Source of the DNA: Gammaproteobacteria bacterium
GTDB lineage: Bacteria > Pseudomonadota > Gammaproteobacteria > Chromatiales > Chromatiaceae
Assembly: GCA_020445255.1 (NCBI GenBank)
Contig: JAGRGY010000019.1
Coordinates: forward strand, 1 to 64,000
Reading direction: 5' to 3'
DNA length: 64,000 nucleotides
Shown: piece after piece, positions 2,595 through 64,000 of the stretch
Layout of the letters: each line of letters begins with the position of its first letter
How positions within the stretch are numbered: the first letter of the stretch is position 1
Notes under the pieces: model-generated
What the model was told of the DNA's origin: nothing
The model's input: the letters and a program-made list of their open reading frames with translations, nothing else
The model's database searches: none
Translations under genes and position numbers: made by a program

Positions 2595-4382
2595 ATGACC
2601 ACGAACAAACTCGCCATTACAGACGTCGTCCTGCGCGACGCTCATCAGTCATTGTTCGCAACGCGACTTCGTCTGAAAGACATGCTGCCGATTGCCGCCA
2701 AGCTGGATACGGTCGGCTTCTGGTCGCTGGAAATGTGGGGTGGTGCAACATTCGATGCCTGCATCCGCTTTCTCGGAGAGGATCCATGGGAGCGCCTGCG
2801 CGCCTTGAAGGCGGCGATGCCGAATACGCGTATGCAGATGCTGTTCCGGGCTCAGAATATCCTGGGTTACCGCCACTATGCCGATGATGTCGTGGAGCGG
2901 TTCGTGGAGCGCGCCGCCGAAAACGGCATGGACGTGTTCCGCATCTTCGATGCGATGAACGATCTGCGTAACTTCACAACCGCGGTGAAGGCCACACTGC
3001 GCGTGGGGCGGCATGCTCAGGGGGCGATGTCGTACACGGTGAGCCCGGTCCATGACCTGCAATATTGGCTGGACATGGCCAAGGGTCTCGAAGACATGGG
3101 TTGCCATTCGATTTGCATCAAGGACATGGCCGGCCTGCTGGCGCCTTACACGTGCTTCGAACTCGTATCGCGACTGAAAGAGACCGTCGCGGTGCCGATC
3201 GCGATGCAGTCGCACGCGACCACGGGCATGAGCACGACGACCAATATCAAGGCCGCCGAGGCCGGCATCGACATGCTGGACACCGCGATCTCGTCGATGT
3301 CGATGACCTACGGCCATTCGGCCACGGAATCGGTGGTCGCGATCCTCCAGGGCACCGAACGCGACACCGGTCTCGACATCCATCTGCTCGAAGAGATCGC
3401 AGCGTATTTTCGCGAGGTCCGGAAGAAGTACGCCAAGTTCGAAGGTTCGCTGCGCGGCGTCGATTCCCGAATCCTGGTTGCGCAGGTGCCAGGCGGCATG
3501 CTGACGAACATGGAGAATCAGCTGCGCGAGCAGGGTGCGGCCGACCGCATGGACGAAGTGCTTGCTGAGATTCCGCGTGTGCGCGAAGACCTCGGGTTTA
3601 TTCCACTGGTCACGCCGACGTCGCAAATCGTGGGCACCCAGGCCGTGCTCAACGTGCTGTCGGGCGAACGCTATAAGAACATCAGCAAGGAAACGGCGGG
3701 CGTGCTCAAGGGTGAATACGGTGCGACCCCGGCCCCGGTCAACGTCGGGTTGCAAAAGCGGGTGCTGGGTGAAGGGGGTGCGCCGATCACGTGTCGCCCC
3801 GCCGATCTCATCGAGCCGGAGGTCGACCGCCTGACTCTGGAGTTCCGTGGCTTGGCCAAGGAGCGCAGCATCCGGGTCGCTGACGCTGAAATCGACGATG
3901 TGCTGACCTACGCACTGTTTCCCCAAATCGGTCTGAAGTTTCTCGAAAACCGCGACAATCCCGCCGCGTTCGAACCGCCGCCAGGTCAGGAGCCACCTCC
4001 GGCCAAACCCGAACCTGCGGTTTCGGCCGCTGCCAAAGGGCCTGAGTCCTACCAGGTGACCGTGGACGGACGGACCTACGGCGTGACCGTTGCGCCGGGC
4101 GGCGAGATCGCCCAGGTCCAGCCGGCGGCCGCGAACCCGGCGCCGATCGCGGCCGCACCGGCCGGCGGCGCGGTCAATGTCCCCGCGCCGTTGGCCGGCA
4201 ACATCTTCAAGGTCAATGTCGCGCCTGGACAGGTCATCAAGTCTGGCGACGTGATCATGTTGCTGGAGGCGATGAAAATGGAAACGGAGGTGCGCTCACC
4301 CGATTCCGGCACCGTTCAGTCGGTACTGGTGAAGGAAGGTGACGTTGTACAGGTTGGCGACGTACTGCTGACCCTGGGCTGA
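2595..4382 (+). CDS. oadA: Oxaloacetate decarboxylase (Na+-pumping), alpha subunit, biotin-carrying
   Basis: 595 residues. The N-terminal half is a carboxyltransferase TIM barrel: [12 protein letters not shown] supplies metal-binding residues, KDMAGLL carries the lysine that takes the carboxyl group, and [10 protein letters not shown] the metal-binding histidine. A conserved PYC_OADA domain follows to about residue 450, then a Pro/Ala-rich linker, and a biotinyl domain with the EAMKMET biotinylation site near residue 560. It transfers CO2 from oxaloacetate to biotin; the beta subunit then releases it and exports sodium. Pyruvate carboxylase B subunits look similar, but the flanking oadG and oadB settle the identity. 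It has no biotin carboxylase domain. Confidence 0.96.
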
Positions 4383-4387
4383 CGGCG

Positions 4388-5686
4388 ATGATGGACAACG
4401 GTTTCGAGGCCCTGTGGCAGTCCATGGGGATTGCCAATCTGGTCTGGGGCCAGGCGTTCATGGTGCTGGTGGGTGGCTTGTTGATGTTCCTGGCCATCCG
4501 CAAGGGTTTTGAGCCTTTGCTGTTGCTGCCGATCGGATTCGGATGCGTGCTGGCGAACGTGCCGGTGGCCGGTCTGGCCGACGACGCTGTTGGCCACCTG
4601 CTGCTTGCGAAGAACCCGGCGCACATGGCGGCACTGGCCGATCTGCTCGGCACTCCGATCGCCGCGCTGGGCGATGCGGTGCACCATGCCAGTGGTGCGA
4701 GCGTGCACGCAGCTAGGGCGCTGGCCCGCGATCTGGGCTACGAGCCCGGCATGCTGTACCAGTTCTACGCCGTCGCAATCGAATCGGGGGTTGCGCCGCT
4801 GCTGATCTTCATGGGTGTCGGTGCGCTGACCGACTTTAGTGCGCTGATCGCACTGCCGGCGACCTTGCTGCTGGGTGCTGCGGCCCAGTTCGGCATCTTC
4901 TTCACGCTGATCGGGGCCCTGGCATTGAATGTGGTCCCCGGCTTCAATTTTTCTCTTGCCGATGCGTCGGCGATCGCGATCATCGGCGGCGCCGACGGGC
5001 CGACTGCGATCTTCCTCGCCTCGAAGCTGGCCCCCGACCTGCTCGGCGCGATCGCGGTTGCCGCCTACTCTTACATGGCGCTGGTGCCGATCATCCAGCC
5101 ACCGATCATGCGCGCGCTGACCACGGACGCCGAACGCAGGGTGGAGATGATGCAGCTGCGGCCGGTCAGCAAGCTCGAAAAGATCATGTTCCCGTTGACG
5201 GTGCTGCTGCTGTGCCTGCTGTTTTTGCCGTCTGCGGCGCCGCTGATCGGCATGCTGACCTTTGGCAACCTGCTGCGCGAATCCGGCGTCGTGGATCGCC
5301 TGAGCAAATCGGCGCAGAACGAGATCATCAATGCGGTCACCATCATCCTCGGGCTGTCGGTGGGTTCGAAGTTGCAGGCCGACAAGTTCCTCAGCGTCGA
5401 AACGCTGGGCATCCTTGCGCTCGGCGCGATTGCGTTCTGTGTCGGCACAGCGGCTGGAGTCATCATGGGCAAGATCATGAACCGGGTGTCGGGTGGGAAA
5501 GTCAATCCCCTGATCGGCGCGGCCGGCGTCTCGGCGGTCCCGATGGCGGCACGCGTCGTCAACAAGGTGGGGCTCGAATCCAACCATCATAATTTTCTAC
5601 TTATGCATGCCATGGGGCCGAACGTGGCCGGGGTCATCGGGTCTGCGGTCGCAGCAGGGGTGCTGCTGGCCGTGGTTGGCAGCTGA
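4388..5686 (+). CDS. oadB: Oxaloacetate decarboxylase (Na+-pumping), beta subunit
   Basis: Integral membrane protein of 432 residues with about nine or more hydrophobic segments, the length of Vibrio-type OadB. The most conserved piece, [20 protein letters not shown], contains the aspartate known to be needed for sodium transport, and [18 protein letters not shown] lies near the C-terminus. It decarboxylates carboxybiotin on OadA and couples this to sodium export. It starts five bases after oadA. It is the last gene of the oad operon; a sigma-70-like promoter for the next operon lies 40 bases downstream. Confidence 0.95.
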
Positions 5687-5763: not shown

Positions 5764-6306
5764 ATGTTGTCGCTTCTGCCGGACTATGCCGATCCGCTGC
5801 GTCTGAGTGCGCTGGGTAAGCGCTATGAGGGCAAGATCAAGCTGGCAGAGTTGCCGCGCCTGGGGCCGCTCCTGGCTTCTCCGGAAGGAGATGCTTCGTT
5901 CGTGCTGACGTTCGGCGTCGATCAGGAAAAGCGGCCGGTGGTCAGCGTCGCTGTCGCTGCGGCCCTGATCGTCCAGTGTCAGCGTTGCATGGGGCCGATG
6001 GCACTCGCCGTGGATTCGGTTGCGGATCTCGCGGTCGTTTCAGGGCCCGACGAGGCTGAACGGCTGCCGGCGGAGCTGGATCCGCTGCTGATCGAGGACG
6101 GCCGCGTGGAATTGCGTGCACTGATCGAGGACGAACTGTTGTTGTCCGTTCCACCGGCACCGATGCACGCGCGCGAGAATTGTGAAGTGCAGTTGGATCG
6201 CGTCAACGACAACGAACTGGCGGCGCATGGCCCGGCTGATGCCGAACGCGAGAACCCGTTTGCGGCGCTTGCGGGCCTGCGTGACGAATTGGGCAAACAC
6301 GACTGA
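5764..6306 (+). CDS. yceD: YceD (DUF177), 23S rRNA accumulation protein
   Basis: 180 residues, as in E. coli YceD, which is needed for normal 23S rRNA levels and is conserved upstream of rpmF. Visible family features are the CQRC pair near residue 73, an acidic middle, EDELLLSVPPAPMH and a C-terminal PFAALAGL. Known members have a second C.....C site; here one later cysteine (NCEV) remains. The start is supported by alignment with E. coli YceD over the first residues, although no ribosome-binding site precedes it. rpmF follows after 21 bases and is surely co-transcribed. Confidence 0.88.
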   Translation: MLSLLPDYADPLRLSALGKRYEGKIKLAELPRLGPLLASPEGDASFVLTFGVDQEKRPVVSVAVAAALIVQCQRCMGPMALAVDSVADLAVVSGPDEAERLPAELDPLLIEDGRVELRALIEDELLLSVPPAPMHARENCEVQLDRVNDNELAAHGPADAERENPFAALAGLRDELGKHD

Positions 6307-6327
6307 TCTGTCTCAGAGGTAACGAAA

Positions 6328-6498
6328 ATGGCGGTCCAACAGAACCGAAAAACTCCTTCGAAGCGGGGCATGCGCCGCGCGCACGACGCACTCAAACCGG
6401 AATCACTGTCGATCGATCCGACGTCCGGTGAGACCCATATGCGTCACAATGTGACCCCGGACGGTTTCTACCGCGGTCGCAAAGTCATCGACAAATAA
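6328..6498 (+). CDS. rpmF: 50S ribosomal protein L32
   Basis: A short gene of 56 residues beginning [20 protein letters not shown] and ending RGRKVIDK, the complete L32 pattern. It is the form without the zinc-binding cysteines, as usual in gammaproteobacteria. A purine-rich GAGGTAACG lies just upstream of the ATG. It sits between yceD and plsX exactly as in E. coli. Confidence 0.97.
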
Positions 6499-6546
6499 TC
6501 CCATTGCCTCGATGAGTCGGTTCGCACGGCGGCACGCGATCATTTC

Positions 6547-7569
6547 GTGAGCAAACGGATCACGATTGCCCTCGACGCGATGGGTGGTGACCACGGCCCG
6601 CGCGTCGTGGTTCCCGCCGCGGTGACGTTCCTCCAGAACAACCCCGACTGCGAGTTGATCCTGGTCGGGCGGGAAGATGCAATCGGTGCGCACGTACGTG
6701 GCCAACTGCCGGAACGGCTGACCATTCAGCCCGCTTCGCAGGAGGTCGGAATGGACGAACTGCCGTCGCGGGCGTTGCGCAATAAAAAGGACTCGTCGAT
6801 GCGCGTGGCTATCGACCTGGTCAAAGCCGGAACGGCCGACGCCTGTGTCAGCGCGGGCAACACCGGTGCGCTGATGGCCACGGCGCGGTTCGTGTTGAAA
6901 ACGCTGCCGCACATCGACCGCCCCGCGATCATCACGTCGCTGCCCGCGGTCAACGGCCGAACCTGGATGCTGGACCTGGGGGCCAACGTCGATTGCGAGG
7001 CGGAGCATCTTTACCAGTTCGCGGTGATGGGTTCGGAGCTGGTGAGTTCTGTGGAGGGCGTTGCAAATCCCTCCGTCGCGCTGCTGAATATCGGCCAGGA
7101 AGAGATCAAAGGGAACGAGCAGGTCAAAGAGGCGCACGAACTGCTTACCCGCAGTTCGCTGAACTACATTGGCTACGTGGAAGGTGATGATATCTATCTG
7201 CGTGACAACCTGGATGTCGTCGTCACTGATGGCTTCGTCGGCAACGTGGCACTGAAGACTACCGAAGGCGTCGCGAAGCTGATTCGCCATTTCATGACGG
7301 AAGAGTTCAAACGCAATATATTCACCAAGCTTTCGGGGCTTGTGGCACTGCCTGTGTTGCACGCATTGCGTAAACGTATCGACCCCCGACGCTACAATGG
7401 CGCAAGCCTGCTGGGTTTGCGCGGAATCGTCGTCAAGAGTCACGGTGGTGCCGATGCGCTCGCCTTTGAATACGCCATCAGGATCGCGAAAAAGGAAGTG
7501 ACCGCCGATATCGCTGAACGTATTGAACAGCGCGTCGCCAGGCAACTCGACATGTCGGCCGACGCATGA
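6547..7569 (+). CDS. plsX: Phosphate acyltransferase PlsX
   Basis: 340 residues. PlsX converts acyl-ACP plus phosphate to acyl phosphate, the first step of phospholipid synthesis through PlsY. The N-terminal signature [12 protein letters not shown] is present, then [14 protein letters not shown] and the C-terminal [12 protein letters not shown]. The start is a GTG, which puts the family signature at residue 6; there is no clear ribosome-binding site. The stop overlaps the fabH start by four bases, so the two are translationally coupled. Confidence 0.95.
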
Positions 7570-57369: not shown

Positions 57370-58380
57370 TCAGTGCGCGTTGTAGTGCCGTTTGTCGTGG
57401 CGGAAATCGCGGTTGTCGAGGACACCGTCGACTGCGCGGTGGACCTGCGCTGTGGCGGATGATGTGGCGGTGTAGGTGCCCTGGATAGGGCTGACGGTCA
57501 CGTAGCCCTCGTCCAGCGCATTGGTCTCGCTACGTGGATCGTCGTCTTCCGGGTAACCTCCGAGGCTTGCCGGGATCTCCAGCGACACGCCGGGAAGTGG
57601 CAGGCCGGCGGGGACGCCGAAGCCGACGGCAACCGGGCTGTCGCCCAAGTGCTCGTAAAACTGCAGGCCGAAATTCGCCGACTCCCCGATGCGCGTGACG
57701 AAGAATGAATAGTCTTCTGCGGTCGTGTTGTCGGCATCGATTACCGGCGTGTTGACGTTCAGTCCGATCCCTTCCGGCAACTTCACGCCGTGCCGCCCGT
57801 CCAGCGCGTCGACCAGGCGCACGGTGAGTTCCGCCACGATTCTGGCCTGCCGCGCGTCGCCCGAGGCGGCGCTAAGCGCGATCGCGGGGATGCGTTTATT
57901 GAGCGCCGTGACCGCGGCACCGATGGTTCCGGAGTGCGGCGTGACGATGCCGAGGTTGTTGCCTTCGTTTGGGCCCGAGATCACAAGATCGGGATAGGCG
58001 CCCCAGGCATGCATCGCGGCGACATCAATGCCATACAGCACGGCCGCCGACGGCGAGCCGTCGACGTAGAACTGCTGGGGTCCGAGCGTTGTGGGTCCGA
58101 CGCCGGGCGATCCGGCGGGCAGGGTGCCTCCGGGCGAGGCCTGCGACGTGGGACCGATTGGGCGCAGGAACGCGATCATACCGGACGTACCGCTCTGACC
58201 ACTGTAGGGCGCCGACAGGATGACGTCGTGACCGGCGGCTACCAGAGCGTCGTAGAGTGCCTGGATGTTTGGAGTCTCGAAGCCGTCGTCGTTGGTGATG
58301 ACGATGTTCAGTGCGGATGCGTGCTGGGCGCCGAGCAGAAGGCTGGCGACCAGCACGGAGCGATTGAGCGACCTTGACAT
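57370..58380 (-). CDS. Secreted SurE-like nucleotidase
   Basis: 336 residues from the ATG at 58380; AGGAG lies eleven bases upstream. A signal peptide (VLVASLLLGAQHASA) is followed directly by the SurE metal site, ITNDDGFETPNI. Further sites are SGPNEGNNLG and HSGTIGAAV. SurE enzymes are cytoplasmic 5'/3'-nucleotidases of about 250 residues; this one is exported and has a C-terminal extension with a basic, His-containing end. It probably releases phosphate from nucleotides outside the cytoplasm. Confidence 0.86.
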   Translation of the reverse strand: MSRSLNRSVLVASLLLGAQHASALNIVITNDDGFETPNIQALYDALVAAGHDVILSAPYSGQSGTSGMIAFLRPIGPTSQASPGGTLPAGSPGVGPTTLGPQQFYVDGSPSAAVLYGIDVAAMHAWGAYPDLVISGPNEGNNLGIVTPHSGTIGAAVTALNKRIPAIALSAASGDARQARIVAELTVRLVDALDGRHGVKLPEGIGLNVNTPVIDADNTTAEDYSFFVTRIGESANFGLQFYEHLGDSPVAVGFGVPAGLPLPGVSLEIPASLGGYPEDDDPRSETNALDEGYVTVSPIQGTYTATSSATAQVHRAVDGVLDNRDFRHDKRHYNAH

Positions 58381-58472
58381 GGGAGGGGTGTCTCCTGGTT
58401 GGTGATGACAATCATGAAGTTTCAGCCGCGTGCGTGACGAGCGTATGTCGTTTCTCATCCAGCAGGCGGGCG

Positions 58473-58499
58473 AAAGAAAGCCCGACCGTTTGGTCGGGC
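58473..58499 (-). terminator. Rho-independent terminator of the 5'-nucleotidase gene
   Basis: On the minus strand an 8-bp stem (58480-58487 with 58492-58499, GCCCGACC/GGTCGGGC, loop of 4) is followed by TTTCTTT. It lies 32 bases after the 5'-nucleotidase stop and separates it from the SurE-like gene. Confidence 0.7.
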
Positions 58500-58531
58500 G
58501 AGGTAGTGCAACCGGGTAGGGGCCGATGCAA

Positions 58532-60364
58532 TCAGGGCAGTTCGTTCACCCGGTCGATAGAAGGCGGTGCAACCGGTCCGAATGTGCCGAGATAGTTGAC
58601 CAGCGCATCGAGATCATTGCCGCCATCGGTCCGGGTTGCTGCGTCGATCGCAGCGAAGGTCGTGAAGTTGTCACCGCCGTCGGCGAGGAAGTTGTTGGCC
58701 GTCACACGATAGCTGCCAGCGGGATCCAGTGGCGCCCCATTGAGCATCACGTTGGATACATGCACATCGATGCAGTCACCGCCGACGATTGTCTTCTCCA
58801 GGTCATAGCTGAACCCCTGCGACACGCCGAGGTGCAGGAACGGCCGCGACGCGCCGAGGGGCTGGCATTGCTCTTCCAGAACGGACACGATCTGCGCTCC
58901 CGTCATGGTGAACGTCAGCAGCGTATTGCCGAACGGCTGGAACGTGAATGCCTCGCCGAAGGTGACCACGCCGTCACCTTCGCCTTCGATCGACGATGGG
59001 TAGGCAAGGTCCGAGCGCACCCCGCCCGGGTTCATGAACGCGATCTGTGCGTCCGCCGCCGAGGTCGCCCACAGTTGTGCATCGGCCACCAGGTTGCCGG
59101 CGGCCGACTCGACACCACGGTCGCTGCCCGGCGGGTTGCCTCCGCGCAGGATATCGTCACTGATCGTGCCGATCGGTGTCGTGCCGGCCTCGGCGTACAA
59201 TGGCGCCCACTTGTCGATGACAGCGGTCAGCTCGGGGTCCGGCTCAAGTTCGTCTTGATAGACGGCATGGTTGGTCGCTGTGGACAGATCGCGACGCACA
59301 TCACCGGTCTTCTTGTCCAATACCAGATTGAATTCGGATACCACGCGTCCATACGACCAGGCGCTTGTTACCGGGCGCGGGTTCCCGGCCGGGTCTGGCA
59401 GCATGCAGTTGTACGGCTGATGCGTGTGACCGGTGATCACGGCATCGACCTCGGCATTGAGCGCGGCGTTGATCGCGACGATCGGACCACTGATGCCTTC
59501 ACAGCCATCGAGCGTGAGCGGGTTGGGGATGCCGCCCTCATGGAGCAGGACGACGATCGCCTTGACGCCGTGGCGACGCAGGTGGCGGACCAGGCGGTTC
59601 GCCGTCTCCGCTTCGTCGAGGAAGGTGTATCCGGCGATGCCCGATGCCGCCACCAGCGTGTCGGTCGCCTCCAGGGTCATGCCGATGAACGCGACGTCGA
59701 CCCCCTCTATGCGCTTGATCCAGTACGGAGGCAGCGGCGTGTCGCCGGTTTCGTCGATCACATTTGCGGCCAGCCACTGAAAATTGGCGCCTGCGTAGGG
59801 TTCTTCGGGAAAGTAGCAGCCATCAACCGGGTGACAGCCGCCGTACTGCATGCGCAGCAACTCGATGACGCCTTCATCGAACTCGTGGTTGCCAACGCTC
59901 GATACGTCGAGTCCCATCGCGTTCAGCGACTCGACCGAGGGCTCGTCATGGAACAGCCCGGAGAACGCCGGTGAGCCGCCGATCAGGTCGCCTGCGGCGA
60001 CCGTCAGCGAGTACTTGTTGCCGGCACGCAGCTCCGCCAGCTTGGCCGCGAGGTACTCGGCCCCACCTGCCGGGCGGTCGTCGATTGTCCCGGGCGTGTC
60101 GGGCGTGAGGTGTCCGTGGTAGTCGTTGAACGCGAGCAGCTGCAGGTCGATCAGGCGGCCGCGGTTGTCGTGGCGCCCGTGGTGCGACCATCCCTTGTGC
60201 ACGGCAGAGCCATGCTTCCCGTGCGGCGCGGAATCGCCGGCGATCACGGCAGATCCGAATGCCAGCGAGAGCGCAGAGATGACGAGGGGCAGCGCGTGTG
60301 GAACGAACCGGCGATGCTGTTCAGGACCGTTCGCGAAGGGTTTATGGATCGAGGGAAGATTCAT
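58532..60364 (-). CDS. Secreted 5'-nucleotidase/2',3'-cyclic phosphodiesterase (UshA family)
   Basis: 610 residues from the ATG at 60364; the frame is open further but crosses the Pho box. A long signal peptide ends near SAVIA and is followed by a segment with six histidines in about 25 residues. The metallophosphatase domain shows LLAFNDYHGHL, AAGDLIGG, GNHEFDEG and GHTHQPYN; the C-terminal 5'-nucleotidase domain has SAAGNLVADAQ, NPGGVRSDL and the substrate-binding NNFLADGGDNF. It releases phosphate from nucleotides in the periplasm or outside. A Pho box controls it. Confidence 0.93.
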   Translation of the reverse strand: MNLPSIHKPFANGPEQHRRFVPHALPLVISALSLAFGSAVIAGDSAPHGKHGSAVHKGWSHHGRHDNRGRLIDLQLLAFNDYHGHLTPDTPGTIDDRPAGGAEYLAAKLAELRAGNKYSLTVAAGDLIGGSPAFSGLFHDEPSVESLNAMGLDVSSVGNHEFDEGVIELLRMQYGGCHPVDGCYFPEEPYAGANFQWLAANVIDETGDTPLPPYWIKRIEGVDVAFIGMTLEATDTLVAASGIAGYTFLDEAETANRLVRHLRRHGVKAIVVLLHEGGIPNPLTLDGCEGISGPIVAINAALNAEVDAVITGHTHQPYNCMLPDPAGNPRPVTSAWSYGRVVSEFNLVLDKKTGDVRRDLSTATNHAVYQDELEPDPELTAVIDKWAPLYAEAGTTPIGTISDDILRGGNPPGSDRGVESAAGNLVADAQLWATSAADAQIAFMNPGGVRSDLAYPSSIEGEGDGVVTFGEAFTFQPFGNTLLTFTMTGAQIVSVLEEQCQPLGASRPFLHLGVSQGFSYDLEKTIVGGDCIDVHVSNVMLNGAPLDPAGSYRVTANNFLADGGDNFTTFAAIDAATRTDGGNDLDALVNYLGTFGPVAPPSIDRVNELP

Positions 60365-60396
60365 CAGGGCACCGTAGTTGTTGTTCAAGAGCCCGG

Positions 60397-60430
60397 TTTT
60401 TAGCCTGCGGAGGTAACAGGAATGTGACGG
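60397..60430 (-). promoter_or_regulatory. Pho box and -10 element before the 5'-nucleotidase gene
   Basis: On the minus strand CCGTCAC-ATTC-CTGTTAC (60413-60430) matches the two CTGTCAY half-sites of the PhoB consensus at 5-6 and 6 of 7 positions with the right 4-base spacing. TAAAAA (60397-60402) lies ten bases further on, the usual place for the -10 of a PhoB-activated promoter. The start codon is 33 bases downstream of that. Confidence 0.6.
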
Positions 60431-60603
60431 TGCGGGGTCGGCCGGCGATCGCCTAGCCTCGGAATTGGCGGGACCTGAATGCACACGGTGCACTTTCGGC
60501 GTCGCGCCCAGCGCTGCGGTTGACTGGCGCGGATCGAACAAAAAGCTGATTCATCAAAGCATTGGGCAACGACGCGTCGCTAAGCCGGGACGTTGGAGGT
60601 GGC

Positions 60604-61494
60604 TCAGTGGTCGCGCGGCAGCGTGTCCAGGATCGAGCGCGCCTCCAGCGCGAGTGCACGGTCGCCGCTTTGCTGGCCCAGGTCCAGCGCGCGCTGCAGC
60701 CAGATCCGTGCCTGCGGTGCCTCGCGCTGTGCCGCGCTGCGTCCGGCGCGCAGCAGGTAGTCCGCGGCGAGTCGGGTCTGCCCATCGCGTTCGGCCAGGT
60801 CGCCGGCAGCGGCCAGGCTTCGGACCATGCCCCGGTAGTCGCGCTGCAGGCCGCGCATCGCGACCGCACGATCGAGCAGGGCCAGGGCCTGGGTCAGGTC
60901 ACCATCGATGGCGGCGAATCGTCCGGCAAGCTCGGTGCGATCGGCCGCATCGCCGGGTGGGTCGATGGCCTCCAGCGCCTGAAGGTGGCGGCGCACGTCG
61001 GCGGCGACGCCGCGGTCGGCGGCGATCAGCCCGGCGAGGAAATGGGCCCTGCCGGTTGCCGACGGCGACAGCGCCGCGGCGTCGAGCAGTGGATCGAGCG
61101 CGCTGCTTGCCATGTCGAGGTTTCCTTCACGGTACAGCACGATCGCGCGCAGCAGGTCGAGCTCACTGTCACCGCCGAGCCCGCGGCGCCCGCGCTCCGC
61201 CTCGGCCTGGGTCAGTTGGTCGAGTGCATCCTGGTATCGACCGATGTAGGTGTACGACAGCGCGAGATTGAAGCGTGCGTCGACGATCGCGTCGGCCCTG
61301 TCTTCGGCCAGCGCCTGATCGAGTGCCGCGGTATACAGGGTCGCTGCCTGCGCATACTGTCCCTGCGAGAACGCCAGGCGGGCCGACCGATCGAGCGATT
61401 CGCGCTCGGTTGTCGGCTGGGTGTCGGCCGGGGGCCCGGAGGCGCAGGCACCGAGCAGCGTGGCGAACAGCAATGTGAACAACCACCGCATCAT
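60604..61494 (-). CDS. TPR-like lipoprotein of the MCE operon
   Basis: 296 residues. The signal peptide ends in the lipobox LLGAC, so it is a lipoprotein. The rest is helical, with tetratricopeptide-like units such as ARLAFSQGQYAQAATLYTAAL, ALSYTYIGRYQDALDQLTQA and LLRAIVLYREGNLDMASSAL. A longer open frame upstream reads through the MCE gene in another frame. It overlaps the MCE gene by four bases, so it should act with it, perhaps where other MCE systems have an MlaC/auxiliary lipoprotein. Confidence 0.85.
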   Translation of the reverse strand: MMRWLFTLLFATLLGACASGPPADTQPTTERESLDRSARLAFSQGQYAQAATLYTAALDQALAEDRADAIVDARFNLALSYTYIGRYQDALDQLTQAEAERGRRGLGGDSELDLLRAIVLYREGNLDMASSALDPLLDAAALSPSATGRAHFLAGLIAADRGVAADVRRHLQALEAIDPPGDAADRTELAGRFAAIDGDLTQALALLDRAVAMRGLQRDYRGMVRSLAAAGDLAERDGQTRLAADYLLRAGRSAAQREAPQARIWLQRALDLGQQSGDRALALEARSILDTLPRDH

Positions 61495-62597
61495 GGTCGC
61501 AGCTCCTGCGCCGGCAACCGTCCGCTGCCACCCGGCGCATTGTCGCCTCCACCGAGCAACCAGCTGCCGCGCAGCTGGCGCAGCAGTGTCTCCAGTTCGG
61601 CGAGCGTCTGCTGAACCATGCCCATCAAAACCGGCACGCTGGCCGACGAGGCGCTGATGTCGCGCGTGATCTGCGGCAGTTGCGGTGACGTCGCACGCAG
61701 ATCGCGCATCACGTCGTCGAGCGAATCGAGAATCGAGTTCACATTGGCACTGATCGCCGGTAGGTCCTTGCTCTGCGCATTGACCGAGCGCGACAACGAT
61801 GCGATCTGCGCCGCGGTGGCGCGCAGCTCGTCGAGGATCGGTTCGAGCGCGGTCACGGTCTTGTTGGCATTCGCGAGCAGCGCCTCGAACTCGCGCGCCA
61901 CCTGATCGTTCGCCAGCAGGCGGCCAAGCGAACCCTCGCCCTGCTCGACCCGCGTGGTCAATGCGCTGACGTCGCCGAGCATGACCTGCAGGTTGCCCTC
62001 GGGGTTGGCCAGGCTCTCGGTGAGATCGGCCAGTGCGGTGATCGCGCGTTCGGCCTGGGCGAGTATCGGCATCACCCGGCTGCGTACGTCGGCCATCATC
62101 TCGCCGATGCTCTCGGTGGGCGCGCGGTCCGGCGCCGCGTCGAGCACCGCGTATTGCCAGTCCATGGCCTCGCCCTGGCCGCGCGTGATCTCGACGTAGG
62201 CATCGCCGGCGACCCCGAAGGTCTTGCGGATGATCGCCTTGGAATCGCGTCGGACGAACGGCGACATCGACGAGTCGATGCGGGCCTCGGCATGAATCTT
62301 CTGCTGCGGGTCGATGACGATGCGTTCGACCTTGCCCGCCGGTGTGCCGAGAATCTCGACCTTTGCTCCCTGGGCCAGCCCGAACAGGCCATCGTCGGGC
62401 AGCACGAGGCGGATGCGCTTGCTCGGGTCGATCCACTCGCGTACGGCATCGGCCTGCAGCAGCATGAAGGCGAGCAGCACGATGCCGAGCGACACGAACG
62501 CGCCGATCAGCGTCATGCGGAACCCTTCTCGCGGCGTGCTCATGCGAGAGCGCCCGGACATTGCGTCGACAAGCCGGCTCCGCCTTTCGAAATCCAC
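61491..62597 (-). CDS. MCE-domain (MlaD-like) protein
   Basis: 368 residues: a short cytoplasmic N-terminus, one membrane helix (about 29-47), an MCE domain (about 60-130, with GLAQGAKVEILGTPAGKVERI and FGVAGDAYVEITRG), and a long helical C-terminus rich in heptads with Asn and Leu. It is a single-MCE protein that forms a ring or tube for lipids between membranes. It follows an ABC-like subunit after 13 bases, and starts two genes downstream of an MlaE permease. Confidence 0.9.
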   Translation of the reverse strand: MDFERRSRLVDAMSGRSRMSTPREGFRMTLIGAFVSLGIVLLAFMLLQADAVREWIDPSKRIRLVLPDDGLFGLAQGAKVEILGTPAGKVERIVIDPQQKIHAEARIDSSMSPFVRRDSKAIIRKTFGVAGDAYVEITRGQGEAMDWQYAVLDAAPDRAPTESIGEMMADVRSRVMPILAQAERAITALADLTESLANPEGNLQVMLGDVSALTTRVEQGEGSLGRLLANDQVAREFEALLANANKTVTALEPILDELRATAAQIASLSRSVNAQSKDLPAISANVNSILDSLDDVMRDLRATSPQLPQITRDISASSASVPVLMGMVQQTLAELETLLRQLRGSWLLGGGDNAPGGSGRLPAQELRP

Positions 62598-62610: not shown

Positions 62611-63330
62611 TCAAGTCTGCTCCTCCCAGGTGCGCAGTTCGGCGCCGACGATCCGGTGCCGATGATCGGCCGGAATGCCGTGGTCCCGGAGCAGCGCTTC
62701 GTGTTCGGTCAGCCAGATTACCGCACCGCGCCGCCGTCGGACCTGCTGGATGGCATCGATCAGTGGACTGAGCAGATCGGGATCCCCGCGGCCGCTTGGG
62801 TGTTCGAGGATCACCAGCGTCGGTCGGCCGAGAAACGCACGTACACAGGCGGCGCGGCGCAGGTCGGCTTCGGCACACCGCCCAGGCAACTGCAGCGGCA
62901 GTCCGGGCAGGCCGAAACGACGCGCGATATCGCTCGCCGCCGTGCGCAGCGTGGCGTCCGGCAGCAAGGTGTGGTGGCGCATCGGCAACAGCACGTTGTC
63001 CATCACCGAACGCGTCTCCATCCAGCCGCCGCGGCCCGGCACGCGACCCACGATGCGTCGGCGATTGAATGCGGTGTCACCGGGCAGGCGGCGCCAATCC
63101 TCGCCATTGAAGGCAATCGCTCCGCGGCTCGCAGGCGTCAATCCGAGCAGGGCGTCGGCCAGCACCTCGCTACGCACAGGATCGCGTGAATGCACCAGAT
63201 GAAGCTGGCCGGGCAGTACACGCAGGCCGAACGCGAGAGCGGGCCGCGACGGGCCAGCCGCCGCGATCTGCGCGGCATCCGCCTCGACGATGGGAACAAG
63301 CTCTGTCGTGTCCACGTTGTGCGCCATCAT
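62611..63330 (-). CDS. Degenerate ABC ATPase-like subunit of the MCE system
   Basis: 239 residues. It aligns along its length with MlaF-type ATPases (GAIAFNGEDW, VMDNVLLPMRHH, LRRAACVRAFLGRPTLVIL, VIWLTEHEALL), but every nucleotide-handling motif is changed: the Walker A position is HSRDPVRS (about 47-54, no GKS), the Q-loop glutamine is missing (VPGRGG), the LSGGQ signature is LPGRC, Walker B ends Glu176-His177 where ABC ATPases have Asp-Glu, and the H-loop histidine is displaced (TEH). It therefore probably cannot bind or hydrolyse ATP. The open frame is intact and keeps tight spacing to its neighbours. Confidence 0.8.
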   Translation of the reverse strand: MMAHNVDTTELVPIVEADAAQIAAAGPSRPALAFGLRVLPGQLHLVHSRDPVRSEVLADALLGLTPASRGAIAFNGEDWRRLPGDTAFNRRRIVGRVPGRGGWMETRSVMDNVLLPMRHHTLLPDATLRTAASDIARRFGLPGLPLQLPGRCAEADLRRAACVRAFLGRPTLVILEHPSGRGDPDLLSPLIDAIQQVRRRRGAVIWLTEHEALLRDHGIPADHRHRIVGAELRTWEEQT

Positions 63331-63338
63331 CGGCCTGA

Positions 63339-64000
63339 TCAGAACACGGCCGACACGAGTACGCCGATCGCAAACGTCGCCAGCAGCGAGGCGACGAAGG
63401 CACGTGGCAGCGCACGCCGGACACTACCGCGCTCGGGCTTCAGGCCCAACCCAATCCGGATCGGGATGTAGGCCAGGACGTAGCCAATCAACAGCGGCTT
63501 GACGATGAAAAGAAGATGATCCGCTGGCTGCATGTTGGCAAATACCCCAACGACGAGTTCCAACGGCGACTCCTTGACCAGATCGCCGGCGGCGGCGCCG
63601 GCGAAACCGATCCAGAGCGCGACATGGGTGAACAGGATGGTCAGCAGCAGTGCAGCGAGCGACATCGCCCAGCAACGCGGCAATGTGACGAAGTCGACCG
63701 GGTCGACACCCTGCGAGCGCAGCGTCGAGATGTAGCCATCGGTCGATAACTGGCCGATCTCATCGACCAGCACCGATCCGCTGCGTCCGATCAACACCAG
63801 GGCCGTCACGATCGGTGCGACCTGGCGCACCAGGACCAGTACGAGGAACTCACCGATGCGCTCGGCCTGTCCGGCCACACTCGACCAGTAAGCGATCTGC
63901 AGCACGAGGCCGATGCCGACCAAGGCCGCGGTGACGGCGACGGCCGGGATCGCACGCACACCGACCTGGAACAGGAAGTTCATCCATTCGGTGCGCATCG
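63339..64000 (-). CDS. MlaE-type ABC permease (5' end beyond the window)
   Basis: About 220 residues are visible. The MlaE/YrbE family is shown by VAPIVTALVLIGRSGSVLVDEIGQLS, TLRSQGVDPVDFVTLPRCWAM and several membrane segments. An ATG at 63998 lies at the very edge, but family members have some 40 more residues before this part, so the true start is probably outside. It is the membrane part of the MCE lipid transporter; the next gene follows after eight bases. Confidence 0.88.
   Translation of the reverse strand, partial: MRTEWMNFLFQVGVRAIPAVAVTAALVGIGLVLQIAYWSSVAGQAERIGEFLVLVLVRQVAPIVTALVLIGRSGSVLVDEIGQLSTDGYISTLRSQGVDPVDFVTLPRCWAMSLAALLLTILFTHVALWIGFAGAAAGDLVKESPLELVVGVFANMQPADHLLFIVKPLLIGYVLAYIPIRIGLGLKPERGSVRRALPRAFVASLLATFAIGVLVSAVF

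Follow-up and report, generated by a model that had tools for sequence, protein, structure and literature searches.

A conserved MCE gene cassette with an MlaF-fold subunit lacking every catalytic motif and a receptor whose cyclase domain is very likely inactive

The window analysed here, the first 64,000 nucleotides of contig JAGRGY010000019.1 (GCA_020445255.1) from a member of the Chromatiaceae, ends within an operon which raises a simple question: what use does an MCE transporter have for an MlaF-like ATPase that seems unable to bind a nucleotide? The sequence-only reading of this DNA had described such a protein, encoded by an intact frame tightly packed between permease and MCE genes, and had proposed a pseudo-ATPase that either pairs with an active ATPase from another locus or serves a permease working without ATP.

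The frame (Table 1) is uninterrupted. The permease gene stops (63339) 8 nt before it starts, and the MCE ORF lies on its 3' side, separated by 13 nt if the MCE start is the GTG at 62597; an ATG at about 62543 is the likelier start. Alignment to canonical MlaF proteins reveals that all the catalytic motifs have gone, as had been claimed: Walker A GPSGxGK(T/S) is replaced by SRDPVRSEV, the Q-loop region FQSGA by VPGRGG, the signature LSGGMARR by CAEADLRR, Walker B FDEP by LEHP and the H-loop VSHD by LTEH with a displaced His. With Pfam ABC_tran the protein scores 16.1 bits, short of the cut-off of 25. An AlphaFold2 model (pLDDT 93) consists of a complete ABC nucleotide-binding domain, the best Foldseek match of which is E. 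coli MlaF (6xgz, E 5e-17), with structural Z scores of 23.6 to MlaF over 226 residues and 25.6 to LolD. The product is an intact subunit with the MlaF fold, possessing neither the Walker A Lys, the Q-loop Gln, the signature, the Walker B Asp-Glu pair nor the H-loop His of an ABC ATPase. Nor have these motifs moved elsewhere in the protein, since GxxxxGK[ST] is absent from the whole of it, as from all 56 family members scanned.

Table 1. Cassette features located in the window, with the basis of each assignment
Feature	Position	Strand	Basis
TPR lipoprotein, lipobox LGAC	60604..61494	-	ORF and profile search; overlaps MCE stop by 4 nt
MCE (MlaD-like) single-domain protein, one N-terminal TM helix	61491..62597	-	ORF and profile search
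Pseudo-ATPase (degenerate MlaF-like ABC subunit), 239 aa	62611..63330	-	alignments, profile search, structure model
H-loop region, here LTEHEA (residues 207-212)	62695..62712	-	alignment
Walker B strand, here LVILEHP (residues 172-178), catalytic Glu replaced by His	62797..62817	-	alignment
ABC signature position and next helix, here CAEADLRRAACVRA (residues 152-165), LSGG lost	62836..62877	-	alignment
Q-loop region, here RVPGRGG (residues 96-102), Gln absent	63025..63045	-	alignment
Walker A position, here SRDPVRSEV (residues 48-56), Lys absent	63163..63189	-	alignment
MlaE-type permease (PF02405), cut by window edge	63339..64000	-	profile search; start near contig position 64079

The same genus contains orthologues at 50-62% identity, and a scan of named genomes, with alignment, yielded 52 loci (L049-L100) with clear relatives. 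Their hosts are Candidatus Accumulibacter, gammaproteobacterial MAGs, Desulfobacterales, deltaproteobacterial MAGs (placed in the Myxococcota by the tree tool) and many Acetobacteraceae, including Gluconacetobacter, Acetobacter, Asaia, Komagataeibacter and Commensalibacter. This distribution over several phyla rules out an oddity restricted to one genus. When 56 relatives from the Alpha-, Beta- and Gammaproteobacteria, Desulfobacterota and Myxococcota were aligned at the motifs, the losses proved to be common to the family: neither the Walker A Lys, or indeed any GxxGxGK(S/T), nor the Walker B Asp is kept in a single member, Glu standing at the latter position in 55, while 6 members keep the catalytic Glu and 6 the Q-loop Gln, 2 have the H-loop His and a single one has the first Gly of the signature. 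At the P-loop site the sequence differs freely from member to member (SRDPVRSEV, CRDTRRATL and other forms). Conservation is strong in the RAACVRA helix that follows the signature position (the Arg after the signature is kept in 55 and the RA helix in 56 of the 56), and R91, R164, G95 and the RAACVRAFLG helix show little or no variation. The pseudo-ATPases form a clade with support of 100/100, and alignment and tree together support their standing as a distinct subfamily, an idea which the sequence-only reading had made dependent on close relatives sharing the changes.

The dN/dS ratios of the pseudo-ATPase gene in 12 close pairs range from 0.05 to 0.30, which places it under purifying selection; those of the other four genes of the cassette described below range from 0.04 to 0.31 in close pairs. 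Since all 56 relatives are without the Walker A Lys and dN/dS is low, chance and sequencing error are excluded. The gene is present in 89 of 299 species of Acetobacteraceae (family assigned by inference from named members). The permease was matched at 1e-40 in 7 of 398 Pseudomonadota genomes, one of the seven being a four-gene locus of the kind discussed further on. Spread on plasmids was rejected, as tblastn gave no matches among 72,556 of them. One MAG, Ww536, contains two copies of the cassette (L051, L052), both near the version found in the betaproteobacterial Accumulibacter (L053-L055), and this resemblance suggests acquisition by horizontal transfer. A TGA apparently "inside" the ATPase gene of one Acetobacteraceae genus is its terminal stop, the match having run to or just past it. 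In a Burkholderiaceae MAG (L056, 394-1218) an in-frame deletion has left a fusion protein, in which the N-terminal ~194 residues of the pseudo-ATPase run on into the C-terminal tail of the MCE protein; this fusion may be an assembly artefact.

The window holds only part of the operon, its edge cutting the permease gene, and the receptor gene just past the edge was accordingly invisible to the sequence-only reading. The complete cassette specifies a dCache-GAF-cyclase-like receptor, an MlaE-type permease, the pseudo-ATPase, an MCE protein and a TPR lipoprotein, in that order. Gene order and strand are identical in 49 of 53 loci. The four exceptions are L056 and L098, which lie near a contig end or carry a deletion, and two Rhodopila-type loci (L096, 7995-8690, and L097), which consist of receptor, permease and pseudo-ATPase without an MCE or TPR gene downstream. 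No sixth conserved gene was found in the flanks of the cassette loci, and because the flanking genes are unconserved the five genes can be regarded as a unit. The MCE protein has an N-terminal hydrophobic segment and a PF02470 domain (41 bits; cut-off 25), as expected of MlaD; the TPR lipoprotein probably reaches the outer membrane. Downstream in the window (57370-60541, minus strand) are genes for SurE-like and secreted 5'-nucleotidase-like proteins, recognized by eye from the translation and lying outside the conserved cassette. We found no published account of such a cassette in the open literature, a search from which most subscription journals were absent, and the main text of a survey of the neighbourhoods of MCE systems (PMC5561183) is without cyclase, TPR, Cache or GAF, which suggests that the five-gene cassette is undescribed.

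The permease is a clear member of the MlaE family (PF02405, 126 bits; cut-off 22.5) and has changed together with its partner. Arg97 is kept in all 52 cassette permeases, and Glu98 and Lys205 in nearly all; at Glu127 of the T-E-Q motif (positions as in E. coli MlaE) every one of the 52 has Gly, whereas the canonical MlaE proteins read from fetched loci have T-E-Q or T-D-Q. The EExDA motif of mycobacterial permeases, which T-E-Q resembles, is a proposed ATPase-binding site (PMC9947336), and in the cassette permeases this putative site is altered. The coupling helix through which MlaE contacts MlaF lies in the cytosolic stretch that links TM2 to TM3 (PMC7790496), and by alignment Glu127 would fall within this stretch. 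The cassette permeases constitute one clade (support 100/100); since each of the two families forms a single clade, permease and pseudo-ATPase have evolved together.

The receptor gene lies outside the window at about 64160-66571 of contig C50 (8161-10572 of locus L009, minus strand). Its product contains dCache_1 (70.5 bits), GAF (64 bits) and Guanylate_cyc (PF00211, 71 bits) domains. Among 30 receptors of relatives profile matches revealed dCache in 30, GAF in 25 and the cyclase fold in 29. Cyclase residues were scored against the solved Rv1625c-type catalytic domain, in which we take the roles of D256, D300, K296, D365, N372 and R376 to be established. None of 49 receptors retains five of these six residues; Asp365 is replaced by Asn in 46, while 1 receptor still has Asn372, 3 have Arg376 and 13 the metal-binding Asp300. 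At D256, D300, K296, D365, N372 and R376 the window receptor has D, D, K, T, Q and T, and thus retains three of the six, namely both metal Asp residues and the Lys. Of the residue sets expected in a class III nucleotide cyclase (the two metal Asp, a Lys/Asp specificity pair and an Asn-Arg transition-state pair) it has only the first complete. Judged by these substitutions the cyclase domain is very likely inactive; we say very likely rather than certainly because the Asn alone is dispensable in some active cyclases (PMC4215837). At locus L206 an orphan MlaE-type permease gene (6244-7026), with no adjoining ATPase or MCE gene, lies two genes downstream of a cyclase ORF (3181-5385) with catalytic residues that look intact by eye, an arrangement that is possibly coincidental.

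Relatives of the cassette with four genes (permease, ATPase, MCE and TPR, no receptor) occur mostly in the Desulfobacterota, with a further locus in genome G094. The TPR-type MCE loci of the Desulfobacterota (L196-L205 and L208-L210, from the phylum of G064) together make up a broad sister group. Their ATPases are variously eroded, and the exact branching of these is uncertain owing to long branches. The ATPase of L202 has GPSGCGKST, FQD and DEP together with a broken signature, LSLGL; L196 retains Walker A only, and L197 and L198 possess no recognisable motif. The G094 locus (L158, 5989-9641) encodes permease, ATPase, MCE protein and TPR lipoprotein without a receptor; its ATPase has kept Walker A, the DE pair and the His, has MSELQ for LSGGQ and is without the Q-loop Gln. 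Its permease branches nearest to the cassette permeases. The L158 ATPase is unsupported as a direct ancestor of the cassette protein, as it falls among canonical ABC proteins on a very long branch. Because the signature is altered in all of the four-gene ATPases and the H-loop His is missing from most of them, the alignments suggest that erosion began on the hydrolysis side of the site and reached the P-loop later, and that loss occurred more than once.

Among described systems the closest likeness is to MlaFEDB, with which the cassette shares an MlaE-family permease, an ABC-fold subunit nearest to MlaF by Foldseek, an MlaD-like MCE protein and the same permease-ATPase-MCE neighbourhood. It differs in that its ATPase has no catalytic motif, is ~239 rather than 269 aa long and is missing the C-terminal extension, which in E. 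coli MlaF makes a dimer handshake (PMC7367683). There is no gene for MlaB (STAS) or MlaC, and in their stead stand a TPR lipoprotein downstream and the dCache-GAF-pseudo-cyclase upstream. Encoding neither an active MlaF nor MlaB or MlaC, the cassette falls outside the Mla system, yet it would work like an MCE transporter. PqiABC and YebST (LetAB) similarly comprise an MCE conduit, seemingly without an ABC motor, and PqiC is likewise an outer-membrane lipoprotein, but these systems have a PqiA-type membrane subunit and multi-domain MCE proteins and have not kept an ABC-like subunit. The YrbE permeases of the mycobacterial Mce1 and Mce4 systems are relatives of MlaE and their ATPase can be encoded elsewhere; this ATPase, MceG, is active and its Walker motifs are required for transport (PMC9947336), whereas the cassette encodes a dead subunit of its own and its permease no longer has the Glu of the EExDA-like motif. 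Heterodimeric ABC transporters in which one site is degenerate, such as TM287/288, also retain as a working part a nucleotide-binding domain which has lost catalytic residues, but they keep one complete composite site, while the sole subunit encoded by the cassette has lost both halves. The receptor has the domain architecture and cyclase fold of the class III cyclases with dCache/GAF input (Rv1625c type), from which it differs by the loss of their catalytic residues.

As ATPase-free MCE systems, PqiABC and YebST set a precedent for an MCE path that has no ABC motor. The explanation which we prefer, and for which we regard the chances as about even, is that the pseudo-ATPase is a scaffold in an MCE lipid conduit which is gated by the ligand-sensing pseudo-cyclase and is not driven by ATP hydrolysis of its own subunit. 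The permease, the MCE barrel and the TPR lipoprotein would provide a path for lipid between the inner and the outer membrane, and the pseudo-ATPase would keep the permease assembled from the cytoplasmic side. A periplasmic ligand would shift the dCache-GAF-pseudo-cyclase dimer, which would then act as an allosteric switch on the module of pseudo-ATPase and permease, so that the receptor, in place of ATP hydrolysis, would set the state of the permease; the lipid would move down its own gradient or by another driving force. The gene set itself, the missing catalytic residues of its two enzyme domains, the accompanying change in the permease and the purifying selection are demonstrated; we infer the formation of a complex, its gating, the nature of the substrate as a lipid and the independence from ATP. 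In this scheme receptor and transporter would touch, but co-transcription could mean shared regulation only. In E. coli MlaF the K47A and E170Q substitutions each abolish function (PMC7367683); because both residues are needed there, and the signature and partner motif are missing here as well, the pseudo-ATPase is not expected to power transport. Further points against the conduit are the canonical MlaF proteins considered below, the three catalytic residues kept by the window receptor, and the Rhodopila-type loci without MCE and TPR genes. A bolder form of the proposal, which we advance tentatively and think somewhat less probable, is that the cassettes make up a separate class of ligand-gated, ATP-independent MCE conduits, in which the ATP motor has been traded for a receptor, and pseudo-cyclase and pseudo-ATPase are kept solely as moving parts which pass a periplasmic signal to the MlaE-type permease.

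The main rival is that the transporter is driven by ATP in trans: a canonical MlaF encoded at a different locus would dock on the cassette permease, while the pseudo-ATPase would serve as an assembly factor or as a regulator competing for the dock. A search for a second MlaF gene, as the sequence-only reading had advised, located two canonical mlaF-mlaE loci in this genome; canonical MlaF is encoded in all 13 cassette genomes checked and another MlaE in 37 of 38, the exception being a MAG which may be incomplete. Our attempt to exclude an ATPase in trans through genomes free of canonical MlaF or MlaE therefore failed. Each ATP site of an ABC transporter is composed of the Walker motifs of one subunit and the signature of the other. 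Since the pseudo-ATPase has lost both sides, a mixed dimer with canonical MlaF would be left without a complete site. A shared ATPase is known from mycobacteria, where a single MceG powers several Mce transporters (PMC9947336), but the Gly that replaces the motif Glu throughout the cassette permeases, and the persistence of the pseudo-ATPase beside its permease in all loci, argue against it here. The suggested pairing with an active ATPase is weakened accordingly: candidate partners exist, the composite site and the permease motif speak against their use, and we regard ATP drive in trans as unlikely, if still a serious contender.

Less probable again is that the cassette is a sensory device, in which the permease, together with the pseudo-ATPase and MCE protein, would sense lipid in the membrane or periplasm and so control the state of the receptor and its pseudo-cyclase, with a protein-protein signal as the output. 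The retention of five genes though both enzyme domains are apparently dead, the sensor character of dCache and GAF and the fixed adjacency of receptor and permease are consistent with such a role; the conservation of R97, E98 and K205, a transport-type feature, the MCE domain, a lipoprotein that probably reaches the outer membrane, and flanks in which no output gene is conserved point instead to transport. The pseudo-ATPase may use nucleotide in some non-canonical manner, or the cyclase domain may have residual activity. Binding or hydrolysis through residues specific to the family (the Walker B Glu, the invariant Arg of LRGRIGRV and RAACVRAFLG) would account for the near-invariance of these positions, and L202 retains Walker A, Q-loop and DE despite its altered signature; the loss of the P-loop sequence and its Lys at a site left free to vary, and the likely location of the conserved residues, by alignment, mostly at packing positions of the helical domain and not near the phosphate, make this route very improbable. 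To a decaying gene, or an error of sequencing or assembly, we assign a practically negligible probability: the L056 deletion would fit it, but the 56 relatives with intact frames and dN/dS values well below 1 rule out frameshift, error or pseudogene, and nearly a third of the Acetobacteraceae species have retained the gene.

The cassette touches on an open question, the movement of lipids between the membranes of Gram-negative bacteria and the need of MCE systems for ATP. It amounts to a natural experiment, in which an MlaE-MCE transporter has an ABC subunit without an ATP site and is coupled to a sensor whose enzyme domain is very likely dead as well, and its receptor-free relatives, being at several stages of erosion, allow the loss of catalysis to be traced stepwise. 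The idea can be tested directly in cultured and tractable carriers, Gluconacetobacter diazotrophicus, Acetobacter, Komagataeibacter and Asaia. The conservation of a dead motor, always beside a sensor with a seemingly dead enzyme domain, in dozens of unrelated bacteria, the vinegar bacteria among them, suggests an undescribed form of signal-controlled lipid transport, which may be free of ATP.
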